From positions 4,547,001 through 4,611,000 of the forward strand of contig NZ_LR824569.1 of assembly GCF_903969135.1 (NCBI RefSeq): a stretch of DNA of 64,000 nt. The letters are read 5' to 3'. The stretch is from Chryseobacterium sp. JV274 (lineage in GTDB: Bacteria > Bacteroidota > Bacteroidia > Flavobacteriales > Weeksellaceae). The notes beneath the pieces were generated by a model, which was not told the origin of the DNA, searched no databases, and saw only the letters and a program-made list of their open reading frames with translations. Numbering within the stretch: the first letter of the stretch is position 1; the number at the start of each line of letters is the position of its first letter. Made by a program: the position numbers and the translations under genes. Below, one piece after another: positions 13,534 to 48,133 of the stretch.

Positions 13534-14400
13534 ATGCTCTCTAAATCTCCAATTCTCCAGCCCTCCAACGCTCCAACCTACTCAATCAATTGTAATGGTC
13601 GTTTAGTACAGCTTGATACTCCAAAAATCATGGGAATCCTCAATCTGACTCCGGATTCATTCTCCGATGGCGGGAAATTCAATGAGGAAAAATCAGCTTT
13701 GAAACATGCAGAAAAACTGTTGAAAGATGGCGCAGAAATACTGGATATCGGACCTCAGTCTACACGCCCCAATGCAGAATTTTTAAGTGCTGCAGAAGAA
13801 ATAAACCGAATCGGAAATATCATTTCTCTGATCAAAAAAGAATTTCCGGAAGTCTTGATTTCTCTTGATACTTTTTATGCAGCAACAGTAAAATTTGGTT
13901 TCAATGAAGGAATTGATCTGATCAATGATATCTCAGGCGGTCAGTATGATGTAGAAATGTTTGATACAGCTGCTGAAACGAAACTTCCCTACATTTTGAT
14001 GCATGTAAATCCTTCCTACAAAACTATGCACGATAAAATAAAGTTTGAAGATATTACACTGGAAGTGAACCAATATTTTGCTAAAAAGACAAAAGAACTT
14101 TTAGAAAAAGGAGTGAATGACATCATTCTTGATCCTGGTTTTGGTTTCGGAAAAACAGGAGAAGATCAGATGAAAATGATCCATGAAGTTGAATATCTCG
14201 GATTTGGAAAATTCCCCCTTTTAATAGGGATTTCCAGAAAGTCATTTATCTACAAACCTCTTGGGAAATCACCTTTGGATATCAATGAAGAAACGCAAAA
14301 ACTTCATATGAAAGTACTAGAACAGGGAGCAAAGATTGTAAGGGTTCATGATGTGGCTGAAGCAAAGGAAACGCTTACCCAGTTTTTACGGAAAAAATAA
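13534..14400 (+). CDS. folP: Dihydropteroate synthase, start altered by inserted sequence
   Basis: This 288-residue enzyme joins p-aminobenzoate to dihydropterin pyrophosphate in folate synthesis. Family motifs are clear: IMGILNLTPDSFSDGG, LDIGPQSTRP, LISLDTF, INDISGG, DPGFGFGKT and the final IVRVHDV. The first 18 codons (13534-13587) are low-complexity Ser/Pro/Asn-rich and look like translated intergenic repeat. A frame opening at ATG 13515 encodes MINYKIHAL and then stops. Removing 46 bp (13542-13587) would join it to NCNGRLVQ. ATG 13534 is the first start that reads into the enzyme now. Confidence 0.92.
   Translation: MLSKSPILQPSNAPTYSINCNGRLVQLDTPKIMGILNLTPDSFSDGGKFNEEKSALKHAEKLLKDGAEILDIGPQSTRPNAEFLSAAEEINRIGNIISLIKKEFPEVLISLDTFYAATVKFGFNEGIDLINDISGGQYDVEMFDTAAETKLPYILMHVNPSYKTMHDKIKFEDITLEVNQYFAKKTKELLEKGVNDIILDPGFGFGKTGEDQMKMIHEVEYLGFGKFPLLIGISRKSFIYKPLGKSPLDINEETQKLHMKVLEQGAKIVRVHDVAEAKETLTQFLRKK
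13542..13587 (+). repeat. 46-bp low-complexity insert at the folP 5' end
   Basis: Units such as CTCCAATTCTCCAGCCCTCC and CTCCAACC repeat with variation. The segment has the same flavour as other intergenic microrepeats here, is 3n+1 long, and separates MINYKIHAL from the rest of FolP. Confidence 0.4.
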
Positions 14401-14437
14401 AAAGTGTAAAAAAACTTGTGAGTAATTAAAAAGTTTA

Positions 14438-14445
14438 TACATTTG
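14438..14445 (+). promoter_or_regulatory. -7 promoter element (TACATTTG) of the ilv operon
   Basis: TACATTTG with a -33 TTG at 14416-14418 (19 nt spacing). It lies exactly 4 nt before the ATG of the first leader peptide, so the leader mRNA probably begins at the start codon. Confidence 0.7.
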
Positions 14446-14449
14446 CAGT

Positions 14450-14533
14450 ATGAATTTTACGAATCAGAAAAATATTATTGTCATTTCTATTATTGCTGCT
14501 GTCATTAACAGCAGGAAGGAAACGGCATTTTAG
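14450..14533 (+). CDS. ilv leader peptide 1 (Ile/Val-rich, attenuator)
   Basis: A 27-codon frame whose middle (residues 9-19) reads IIVISIIAAVI: six Ile and two Val in eleven codons. It ends at TAG 14531-14533. An intrinsic terminator follows 27 nt later. The last codons contain GAAACGG (14519-14525), which is complementary to CCGTTTC (14563-14569) in the terminator's left arm. A ribosome stalled on the Ile/Val codons would leave this antiterminator free; one reaching the stop would mask it. This is the classic layout of amino-acid attenuation, seen directly in the sequence. Confidence 0.85.
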   Translation: MNFTNQKNIIVISIIAAVINSRKETAF

Positions 14534-14560
14534 ATAGATTTAAATTTAAATTATATATAG

Positions 14561-14591
14561 AACCGTTTCAAATTTTGAAACGGTTTTTTTT
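14561..14591 (+). terminator. ilv attenuator terminator 1
   Basis: AACCGTTTC (14561-14569), loop of 7, GAAACGGTT (14577-14585), then a run of T to 14591. The left arm also pairs with 14519-14525 inside leader frame 1. Confidence 0.9.
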
Positions 14592-14616
14592 GTTTTATTT
14601 TTTTACAATAAAAAGT

Positions 14617-14673
14617 ATGTATCAGTTATTATCAGTAATTATTATCGTCATTATTATTCCCTTGCGTCTGTGA
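14617..14673 (+). CDS. ilv leader peptide 2 (Leu/Ile/Val-rich, attenuator)
   Basis: An 18-codon frame encoding MYQLLSVIIIVIIIPLRL, with six Ile, two Val and four Leu, stopping at TGA 14671-14673. It starts only 25 nt after the T-run of terminator 1 and has no convincing promoter of its own, so it lies on the same transcript. GTGAGA (14670-14675), spanning its stop codon, is complementary to TCTCAC (14709-14714) in the left arm of terminator 2. This repeats the attenuator logic with Leu codons added. Confidence 0.85.
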   Translation: MYQLLSVIIIVIIIPLRL

Positions 14674-14702
14674 GAAGGAAGATGTATGACTGTACATATA
14701 TT

Positions 14703-14734
14703 GAGCCCTCTCACAGCGTGAGAGGGCTTTTTTT
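14703..14734 (+). terminator. ilv attenuator terminator 2
   Basis: AGCCCTCTCAC (14704-14714), loop AGC, GTGAGAGGGCT (14718-14728), T-run to 14734. The 11-bp stem is perfect. It lies 34 nt before ilvE. Confidence 0.92.
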
Positions 14735-14768
14735 ATTCCCTTTTGTTAATTTTTTAAACCTCTATAAC

Positions 14769-15641
14769 ATGTATTACAACGACAACACGACCATCTACTT
14801 TGACGGAAAATTTATGAAAGCGAAAGATGCCGGAACAGATCTGTATGGACAATCACTTCACTATGGTTACTCAGTTTTTGAAGGAATTAAATCTTACAGC
14901 ACCGATCATGGAGCCAGGATTTTCAAAGCACAAGAACATTATGAAAGGCTAATAAGATCAGCTGAATTAATGCATATTCCCTTCGATTATTCTGTGAACC
15001 AGCTTACAGAACTTACATATGAACTTCTGGATCGTAATGGTTTTACTGATGCTTATATCCGTCCGTTGGTCACGTGTTCACCCAATATGTCCCTTTCAAA
15101 AGGACAAAAATCTTATCTGTCACTTCTTGCCTGGGAATGGAATAACGGCTATCTGGCAGATAAAATGAAAATTATGACTTCCCCTTTTCAACGTCCTAAT
15201 CCTAAAGCTTTCAAGGTTGAAGCCAAAGTAGGAGGACATTATGTAAACTCAATATTGGCCTGTCAGGATGCCAAAGACAAAGGTTACGATGAAGCGCTGG
15301 TATTGGATGAAAACGGAAATGTTGCCGAAAGCTCTGGTGCCAATGTGTTCTACGAAAAAGACGGGGTTTTATTTACTCCGGCCAAAGGAAGCATCCTTCC
15401 GGGAATCACCAGACAAACCGTTATGGAGATTTGTAATGAGCTTGATATCCCTGTAGAAGAAACATTTTTTAAACCGGAAGAAATGCGTGGTGCAGATGCT
15501 GGCTTTTTCTGTGGTACAGCAGCAGAAATTGTTGCCCTGGATTCTCTTGATGATGTTCTTTTCACCAGAAACTGGGAAGAGACTTCAAGTGGAAGAGTAC
15601 AGCAGGCATATTTGAAATTGGTAAGAGTTCTGTCATTGTAG
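14769..15641 (+). CDS. ilvE: Branched-chain amino acid aminotransferase
   Basis: This 290-residue PLP enzyme of fold type IV performs the last step of Val, Leu and Ile synthesis, using glutamate as amino donor. YGYSVFEGIKSY near residue 33, the Schiff-base Lys153 in VEAKVGGHY, and EALVLDENGNVAESSGANVF are family signatures. ATG 14769 is chosen because the homology starts there (MYYNDNTTIYFDGK); upstream starts would run through terminator 2. It is the first structural gene after the double attenuator. Confidence 0.95.
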   Translation: MYYNDNTTIYFDGKFMKAKDAGTDLYGQSLHYGYSVFEGIKSYSTDHGARIFKAQEHYERLIRSAELMHIPFDYSVNQLTELTYELLDRNGFTDAYIRPLVTCSPNMSLSKGQKSYLSLLAWEWNNGYLADKMKIMTSPFQRPNPKAFKVEAKVGGHYVNSILACQDAKDKGYDEALVLDENGNVAESSGANVFYEKDGVLFTPAKGSILPGITRQTVMEICNELDIPVEETFFKPEEMRGADAGFFCGTAAEIVALDSLDDVLFTRNWEETSSGRVQQAYLKLVRVLSL

Positions 15642-15727
15642 ATTTTAAGAATTTAAATATTTGATTATCAGATGAATATGTCTGTTTTTTAAACGATTGA
15701 ATATTGTAATTTTTATAAAAATTGAAA

Positions 15728-15802
15728 ATGAAAAGAATATTACAAAATGTAGTTTTGGATCAAAATTTAGTAAAGAACTCCATTTTAAAGAAAGGAAAAT
15801 AA
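15728..15802 (+). CDS. Possible small ORF between ilvE and ilvD
   Basis: A 24-codon frame ([20 protein letters not shown] and four more residues) with nine Ile, Leu or Val residues lies in the 180-bp ilvE-ilvD gap. No terminator follows, so it is not a third attenuator of the same kind. It may be chance, a remnant, or a coupling peptide. Another tiny frame at 15809-15832 overlaps the ilvD start. Confidence 0.25.
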
Positions 15803-19246: not shown

Positions 19247-19528
19247 ATGAAAACAGATCATAAAGAATATACCATTACAGCGTATACAGAAGATTATTTA
19301 GGATTGATCGGCCGGATCAATGCTATTTTTTCAAGAAGAAGAATTTCTATGGTGACCTTCAATGTAGGTCCTTCAGAAATAGAAAAAGTAAAAAAGTTTG
19401 TCATCGTGATCAGAGAAACAGAAGATTCTGTTCAGAAAATAAGCAGACAAATGGAAAAACAGGTAGACGTTCTGGAAGTACATTATCACAGAAATCCATA
19501 CCTGACAGCTGTAGAATATGCAAGCTAA
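19247..19528 (+). CDS. ilvN: Acetolactate synthase small (regulatory) subunit, short form
   Basis: This 93-residue protein is a single ACT domain: YTITAYTEDYLGLIGRINAIFSR, then RISMVTFNVGPSE and VLEVHYHRNPY. It binds the large subunit and usually confers Val feedback inhibition. It lacks the C-terminal domain of long small subunits, which makes it similar in size to enterobacterial IlvN/IlvM. Its place directly after ilvB confirms the assignment. Confidence 0.9.
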   Translation: MKTDHKEYTITAYTEDYLGLIGRINAIFSRRRISMVTFNVGPSEIEKVKKFVIVIRETEDSVQKISRQMEKQVDVLEVHYHRNPYLTAVEYAS

Positions 19529-47248: not shown

Positions 47249-48133
47249 ATGGCATCAGGCTTTTTTGCAATTTTAGATGATATTGCAGCATTGATGGATG
47301 ATGTAGCAGTTACCAGTAAGATTGCTACCCAAAAGACAGCAGGGATTTTAGGAGATGACCTTGCTGTAAATGCAGAAAAAGCCACTGGCTTTCTTTCTTC
47401 AAGAGAACTTCCAGTTTTATGGGCAATTACAAAAGGTTCTTTTATTAACAAACTGATCATTCTGCCTATTGTTTTTTTACTCAATTGGTTGTATGCTCCG
47501 GCTATTAATTATGTATTGATCCTTGGAGGATTATATCTGGCTTTTGAAGGCGTTGAAAAAGTAATAGAATTTCTTTTTCACCGTGACAAAAAGGGTCATG
47601 AAGTTATAGAGGAAATTGTAGAAGATGAAAAAAGTTCTGAAGAAATAGAAAAAGAGAAAGTAAAGTCGGCCATTACAACGGATTTTATTTTATCAATCGA
47701 GATTGTTATTATTGCATTAGGAACCGTATTGGAAGAAAGTCATCCTTTCATTACGCAGATTTTAGTAACGAGTTTGGTTGCATTTATTGCGACGGTTGGA
47801 GTTTATGGAATTGTAGCTTTGATCGTAAGAATGGATGATGCAGGATTTAAATTAATAAAGAAAAGTAATGATAAAGGCTTTTTTGGGAGGCTTGGGCATG
47901 TATTAGTGAAGGCTTTACCTATTGTTATTAAAATATTAGGAGTTGTCGGAACAATTGCTTTAATAATGGTTGCTGGTGGAATTTTTCTACATAGGATTGA
48001 ATTTTTTCATGGCGTACTTCCAACCTGGCCAGATGTTTTGAAAGAACTTACGCTTGGACTTGTTGGTGGGTTAGCAGCGGTTGCCATATTTACTTTAGGA
48101 AAAGGGATTTACTCTCTGGCAATAAAAAAATAA
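47249..48133 (+). CDS. DUF808 (YedI-like) inner-membrane protein
   Basis: This 294-residue protein begins MASGFFAILDDIAALMDDVA, the hallmark of DUF808, followed by KTAGILGDDLAVNAEKATGF and about six helices. It resembles E. coli YedI. The function is not established. It is monocistronic. Confidence 0.9.
   Translation: MASGFFAILDDIAALMDDVAVTSKIATQKTAGILGDDLAVNAEKATGFLSSRELPVLWAITKGSFINKLIILPIVFLLNWLYAPAINYVLILGGLYLAFEGVEKVIEFLFHRDKKGHEVIEEIVEDEKSSEEIEKEKVKSAITTDFILSIEIVIIALGTVLEESHPFITQILVTSLVAFIATVGVYGIVALIVRMDDAGFKLIKKSNDKGFFGRLGHVLVKALPIVIKILGVVGTIALIMVAGGIFLHRIEFFHGVLPTWPDVLKELTLGLVGGLAAVAIFTLGKGIYSLAIKK

Follow-up and report, generated by a model that had tools for sequence, protein, structure and literature searches.

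Attenuation is a textbook mechanism of operon control, usually presented with one gate per operon. The ilvGMEDA operon of Escherichia coli and Salmonella has a single leader-peptide attenuator, and the trp and his leaders are similar. The trp leader attenuator is described in the excerpted text of PMC3641672, as is the mgtCBR leader, which senses ATP and proline with additive effects and has stem-loops unlike intrinsic terminators. Leader-peptide attenuation has been noted for amino-acid operons of Flavobacterium psychrophilum, and flavobacteria initiate translation without Shine-Dalgarno sequences (PMC9723704, in excerpt). In the open-licence literature, we found no account of leader-peptide attenuators arranged in series ahead of a biosynthetic amino-acid operon; an earlier report is possible.

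The leader of ilvE in the Chryseobacterium genome considered here very probably comprises two ribosome-mediated transcription attenuators in series, both of which would sense mainly the charging of Ile- and Val-tRNA. The tandem noted in the initial annotation is confirmed as an observation and its reading as serial attenuators is likely. The two-signal gate that was also proposed is doubtful, and tandem leaders prove more widespread than was known at that point.

The ilv locus lies on the single contig of a 5.23 Mb genome, within the 64,000-nt stretch of DNA that was analysed (the window; coordinates refer to it, and all features of the locus are on the plus strand). Gene order is folP, leader, ilvE, ilvD, ilvB, a short ilvN, ilvC and ilvA (names from NCBIfam), with ilvE as the first gene of the ilvE-ilvD-ilvB-ilvN-ilvC-ilvA operon. 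The branched-chain aminotransferase gene ilvE (14769..15641, ATG at 14769) matches NCBIfam TIGR01122 above its cut-off. The product of ilvN, the acetolactate synthase small subunit (19247-19528), is just 93 aa long with one ACT domain and scores 45 bits, below the curated NCBIfam cut-off; the ACT domain in Pfam backs the name.

We identified a predicted promoter (14416..14445) consisting of TTG at 14416-14418, which we take to be its -33 element, and TAcaTTTG at 14438-14445, which matches the flavobacterial -7 box. The published position of the TAnnTTTG box is -12 to -5 (PMC9723704, in excerpt). Applied to TAcaTTTG, this predicts that the transcript starts on the A of the first AUG (14450), which would make leader peptide 1 leaderless. 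The box lies exactly 4 nt from the first ATG in 70 of 75 genus leaders (those with both ORFs in the form searched for), and the remaining five have TACCTTTA at equal spacing. A TAnnTTTG box between the two stop codons is present in none of the 75. This agrees with the original description, in which one predicted promoter is followed by both complete peptide-terminator modules.

In module 1, a 27-codon ORF (ORF1, 14450-14533) encodes leader peptide MNFTNQKNIIVISIIAAVINSRKETAF, with its Ile/Val control run at 14474-14506. Hairpin H1 (14496..14514) lies within ORF1 directly before the antiterminator strand and is a candidate RNA polymerase pause hairpin. The 5' strand of antiterminator 1, GAAACGG (14519..14525), is complementary to CCGTTTC (14563-14569) in terminator 1, which occupies 14559..14591 with its U-tract (hairpin 14559-14587). 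In module 2, ORF2 (14617-14673) encodes leader peptide MYQLLSVIIIVIIIPLRL, with a control run at 14635-14658; its start is an inner ATG of a longer frame beginning with TTG. The 5' strand of antiterminator 2, CTGTGAGA (14668..14675), overlaps the ORF2 stop codon and pairs with 14709-14716, giving 8 bp in this genome; its core GTGAGA (14670-14675) is complementary to TCTCAC (14709-14714). Terminator 2 with its U-tract extends over 14703..14735 (hairpin 14703-14729). By sequence, an intrinsic terminator thus stands between each leader ORF and the structural genes, and in both modules the antiterminator shares the 5' arm of the terminator. The two peptides, two terminators and two antiterminators listed before ilvE in the initial annotation were all found where it had placed them.

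This combination is rare in its surroundings. Positions 14000-15000 contain two terminator-like hairpins, compared with 0.5 +/- 0.7 in shuffles. We scanned the window in 450-nt tiles (283 per strand) for an Ile/Leu/Val-rich short ORF, a terminator and a complementary antiterminator of at least 6 nt, and two modules were present in 1 of 566 tiles, at 14400. One module was present in two further tiles, of which one adjoins the first and covers the same leader, and the other (at 47925) lies within a longer ORF-like stretch. Among 1477 500-nt tiles from 51 named Chryseobacterium loci, from which tiles holding the ilv leader were excluded and for which an antiterminator was not required, two modules were found in none and one module in five. 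Searching the genome with a six-codon RTY pattern yielded 28 matches, spread over ten places, versus 25 for the backward control. The detector identified no other serial modules among these ten places, where the ilv leader was the sole case; a 55-aa minus-strand ORF flagged at one other place was judged spurious, as it lies opposite a longer ORF. Separately, 14 ATT/ATC triplets occur at G000:C1:4429598-4429639, where the opposite strand encodes the poly-Asn tail of an ORF; this may be a slippage site.

In the proposed mechanism, a ribosome that completes the Ile/Val-rich peptide would cover the antiterminator strand at the stop codon, the terminator would form and transcription would end. A ribosome stalled at Ile/Val codons by a shortage of charged tRNA would leave the antiterminator strand free to capture the 5' arm of the terminator, allowing readthrough. 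Polymerase starting at 14450 would reach ilvE only if both modules were antiterminated, and readthrough would multiply. Because both modules appear to sense mainly Ile/Val charging, the series would most likely lower leak and steepen the response rather than add an input.

We modelled folding of RNA truncated ahead of the 3' arm of the terminator, with a 30-nt ribosome footprint set on every codon in turn. In this model, the probability of antiterminator 1 is 1.00 with the ribosome at the last Ile codon and 0.14 two codons on, and that of antiterminator 2 falls from 0.73 at the last Ile codon to 0.00 one codon on. The antiterminator forms with the ribosome at any Ile/Val codon of the run (1.00 for module 1, 0.73-0.98 for module 2) and, in the window, is lost one to three codons past the last of them. 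Switching was predicted for 73 of 80 modules; seven fail to switch. In 70 of 80 non-identical modules, the distance from the first base of the last Ile/Val codon to the start of the antiterminator is 11-19 nt, a spacing rule derived from the same data that it describes. In 73 of 80 modules, a ribosome at the stop codon would cover the antiterminator, a count that is partly built in because antiterminators were sought only between 45 nt upstream and 18 nt downstream of that codon. Complementarity to the stop-codon region exceeds that of 95% of 100 dinucleotide shuffles for 73 of 88 distinct terminator arms, where arms from one family are not independent, genus arms are related, and the spacing, switching and complementarity tests overlap.

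Folding of the full-length leader at equilibrium gives a different outcome, as the terminator wins at 28/28 codon positions in module 1 and 15/19 in module 2. The model therefore needs a co-transcriptional order of folding. The antiterminator is also predicted to be free at every codon before the control run in the window, and its probability without a ribosome is 0.99 for module 1 and 0.92 for module 2 (at least 0.5 in 54 of 80 modules). A protecting 1:2 helix, which would favour termination in an untranslated leader, was not seen in the window folds. This helix is a feature of classical attenuators, and is not universal in the class.

Both modules are well conserved within Chryseobacterium. 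We searched 148 genomes of the genus, of which 104 encode an IlvE of this kind and 44 have only distant matches (E 2e-16 or weaker). The 112 genus leaders comprise 104 loci from 103 genomes and eight from the family search; leaders of ilvE matches with stops or splits (e.g., G105, G013 and G063) were counted, the fragmented G123 was left out, and L011 and L073 were set aside due to leaders cut by contig ends. The final detector did not require an antiterminator and used thresholds that we set, and changes made by eye were added (to two modules for L019, L059, L064, L067, L183, L184, L188, L286 and L289, to one for L091 and L278, to three for L276, and to none for L292, judged spurious); L286 has two modules by detector over 900 nt. 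The detector alone found two modules in 77 genus leaders, one in 28 and none in seven. After reading by eye, the counts are 81 (the 77 plus four), 25 and four (L097, L098, L099 and L101), and the 25 single modules differ in sequence from the tandem pair. Relatives without the peptides or the complementary pairs had been named in advance as evidence against the tandem attenuators; most of the genus does not give such evidence, and the 25/112 with one module and 4/112 with none are the exceptions. The module 2 core pattern has exact matches in 51 named genome stretches, every one of them from Chryseobacterium.

Of the 77 leaders in which both ORFs are present, 69 have a peptide 1 of 27 aa and 69 have a peptide 2 of 18 aa. 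Residues 7-16 of peptide 2 (VIIIVIIIPL) are invariant in all 69 standard-length peptides, one I8V excepted. Over the 77 leaders, Ile makes up 21% of peptide 1 and 34% of peptide 2, and Val 11% and 12%. Aligned, these leaders show 99% pairing in the seven inner pairs of terminator 1 and more than 99% in the ten inner pairs of terminator 2. In antiterminator 1, 98% of cells are paired with G-U counted, in 35 sequences and likewise in the 77 aligned leaders; in antiterminator 2, the six inner pairs are kept in 32 or 33 of 33 sequences and the two outer pairs in 14 and 27 of 33. Exact Watson-Crick antiterminators of at least 6 nt are present in both modules in 50 of the 77 detector-positive leaders. 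The exact match is shorter than 6 nt for module 1 in 25/77 and for module 2 in 2/77, in some cases owing to G-U pairs.

Conserved codon runs and covarying stems were the features to be sought in the alignment of relatives that was first proposed. The Ile/Val runs and the pairing are indeed conserved, but the antiterminators show almost no covariation within the genus. In hairpin H1, 95.1% of cells are paired (35 sequences) and two-sided changes occur in three of seven pairs, in six cells in total; for the whole module 1 structure, 30/500 shuffles reach three two-sided pairs and 0/500 reach six cells. No two-sided pair change was found in antiterminator 1 in the 35 module 1 sequences, which is conservation rather than covariation, and covariation of the module 2 structure (33 sequences) does not exceed that of its shuffles. 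A hairpin H2 (14682-14697) is not claimed, with 82.8% of cells paired and no compensatory pairs. Thus, the case for the antiterminators is made by conservation in the genus together with new complementary sequences in other lineages.

The tandem pair is not confined to this leader but is found in several lineages, some of which have three modules. Of 32 genomes from other genera of the family that have the gene, 30 were read (G166 and G284 were left out): 11 leaders have two modules (eight by detector, three by eye), 18 have one and one has none. Two Chryseobacterium genomes (G139 and G081) have an ilvE 53% identical to that of the window and a tandem leader resembling those of other genera (L105 and L106). 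Their IlvE sequences are placed beside a genome of another genus in the IlvE tree, which suggests horizontal transfer or contamination.

At the level of the order, we read upstream of 16 of 29 ilvD loci from outside the family and found two modules in two, one in four and none in ten; the two with ilvE first (L231 and L238) are the two-module loci. In a second family, that of L231, the gene was found in 19 of 299 genomes searched. By eye, two of these 19 leaders have three modules, 11 have two, four have one and two have none; by detector alone, the numbers are one, ten, six and two. Three Ile/Val modules stand in series before ilvE in L276 (partly by eye) and L277 (by detector). Modules 2 and 3 of L276 are nearly identical tandem copies by eye, which points to growth of leaders by duplication. 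Across the phylum, the gene was identified in 29 of 395 genomes searched. Six had been examined already and were omitted, and L319 repeats the genome of L238. The detector found two modules in four of the 23 further leaders, one in 15 and none in four; the single modules called in outer families (e.g., L301, L302, L311 and L313) may be false, given their weak Ile/Val runs. Three modules were assigned to L295, partly by eye, and two to L294 by eye. L321, a leader from a different class, has two.

On a midpoint-rooted IlvE tree of 76 rows, with module labels assigned partly by eye, the two-module label needs at least seven changes, versus a shuffled mean of 25.6. Thus, the two-module state clusters in clades yet was gained or lost several times.

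Although polymerase was proposed to pass both gates before entering the operon, this holds strictly only for ilvE, as a promoter-like element precedes ilvD in 30/30 loci. This predicted second promoter/operator (15697..15757, plus strand) has TTGAATATTGTAATTTT at 15697 and a -7 box, TAGTTTTG, at 15750-15757. The ilvE-ilvD gap contains [AG]TATTGTA in all 30 loci (L005-L034), followed by TAGTTTTG in 29 and TAGCTTTG in one; the conserved element as a whole reads TTGAATATTGTAATTTT ... AATATTACAA..TGTAGTTTTG. It looks like a BCAA-regulon promoter/operator and may let the later genes bypass both attenuators. If it is a promoter, the two gates would act fully only on ilvE. A similar element is found before the genome's own leuA and before ilvE in the attenuator-less leaders L097, L098, L099 and L101. 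Among 28 genus leaders with a single module or none, 18 contain [AG]TAT[TC]GTA in the 500 nt upstream of ilvE; of 71 others, one contains it in the 400 nt upstream. The own leuA (L228, G000:C1:384097), which carries the ATATTGTA element, is the best match for this gene, at 554.9 bits, below the NCBIfam cut-off of 598.7. A leucine attenuator before leuA was sought with the detector and none was found. An ATATTGTA-like element was also considered as a trait of the second family's leaders and rejected as weak (5/19 versus 113/950 shuffled leaders).

The two modules might instead have different inputs, Ile/Val for module 1 and Leu/Ile/Val for module 2, as initially proposed. Both peptides are Ile/Val-rich and a Leu input is possible only in peptide 2, where Leu4 is present in 66 and Leu5 in 48 of the 69 standard-length peptides; only 1/77 first peptides has Leu outside the last three residues. 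In the fold model, the Leu codons at 14626 and 14629 lie within the zone where a stall would leave antiterminator 2 free, and the lack of a detectable leader module at leuA would be consistent with sensing of Leu at ilvE. However, Leu5 is often replaced by Phe or Val, and a ribosome stalled at the codon of the invariant Leu16 (14662) would already cover antiterminator 2. Leu is flanked by Ile/Val in only 1/85 second peptides of two-module leaders, and in the eight two-module leaders that the detector found in other genera there is no Leu in the Ile/Val run of the second peptide (some have Leu at position 3). The support for Leu sensing by module 2 is therefore weak, and we consider a two-input leader unlikely. 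Within the family, Leu occurs inside the Ile/Val run in 20/42 single modules, compared with 1/85 first peptides of two-module leaders in which it is flanked by Ile/Val. Thus, Leu sensing may belong to the single-module relatives.

Other explanations would keep only part of the serial arrangement. Only module 2 might regulate, with module 1 either a remnant or no more than a terminator insulating ilvE from folP. Single modules are common among relatives, the exact antiterminator 1 is short in the 25/77 genus leaders above, and terminators of similar sequence adjoin other genes of this genome. On the other hand, peptide 1, its frame, its antiterminator (with G-U pairs) and hairpin H1 are kept across the aligned genus leaders, and module 1 switches at the end of its control run in the footprint model, making this very unlikely. 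Terminator 1 was also considered as a dispersed repeat, and this was rejected; the two similar sites in the genome are both just after long ORFs and resemble gene-end terminators. It is highly improbable that each module has its own promoter, acting in parallel rather than in series. A sigma-70-like hexamer pair does overlap ORF2 (14629-14657), but four such sites are present where 4.2 are expected in shuffles, and the flavobacterial box that precedes ORF1 in 70/75 leaders is lacking between the modules in all 75; a separate module 2 promoter was rejected on this basis. The leader could also be a riboswitch, T-box or protein-bound element in which the ORFs are incidental, given its structure, its terminators and 23 weak Rfam matches, among which MicF scores highest, at 34 bits against a required 79. 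This has almost no likelihood: at the gathering score, Rfam has no match in 14300-15000 and none in eight sources, so that a riboswitch or known leader was rejected, and the Ile/Val runs are retained across lineages whose terminators differ in sequence.

Serial attenuation by Ile/Val charging may have a wider role. Tentatively, and at somewhat less than even confidence, we suggest that ilvE-first operons of Flavobacteriales are generally controlled by arrays of one to three attenuators for the same signal, which have grown by duplication and been repeatedly gained or lost. As most modules lack a protecting helix, an untranslated leader would read through by default; stacking would cut this default leak and steepen the switch, and copy number would be an evolvable gain dial. 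This would be a testable account of why a single gate might not suffice in bacteria without Shine-Dalgarno initiation. Natural leaders that place one, two or three modules ahead of ilvE allow the effect of stacking on leak, steepness and dynamic range to be compared. Even in unrelated sequences, the antiterminator lies at a near-constant distance from the last control codon, and this spacing could serve as a simple search rule for such leaders in Bacteroidota, where no Rfam family matched the leaders that were tried.

Like ilvGMEDA, the leader described here has an ORF rich in the regulated amino acids, an antiterminator and terminator that share a strand, and an operon for the same amino acids. 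Unlike ilvGMEDA, it has two complete serial modules (up to three elsewhere) and a predicted leaderless ORF1, and, unlike in the ilvGMEDA, trp and his leaders, no protecting helix that would hide the antiterminator strand without a ribosome was seen in the fold model. F. psychrophilum is likewise a flavobacterium with leader peptides; the main text of PMC9723704 does not contain 'ilv' and its excerpted passages mention no tandem. The rimP leader also has a second terminator in tandem, with leader peptides not mentioned in the excerpt (PMC2965389). The tandem riboswitches of B. clausii metE are also two serial regulators with intrinsic terminators, but they respond to two different signals through RNA-bound ligands, without leader peptides (PMC3641672, in excerpt). 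The Salmonella mgtCBR leader contains a pair of leader ORFs, both of which control elongation (PMC3641672, in excerpt), as the two serial ORFs predicted from sequence before ilvE would. Unlike in mgtCBR, both ilvE modules combine an Ile/Val run with a hairpin resembling an intrinsic terminator, and they precede an operon for amino-acid biosynthesis.
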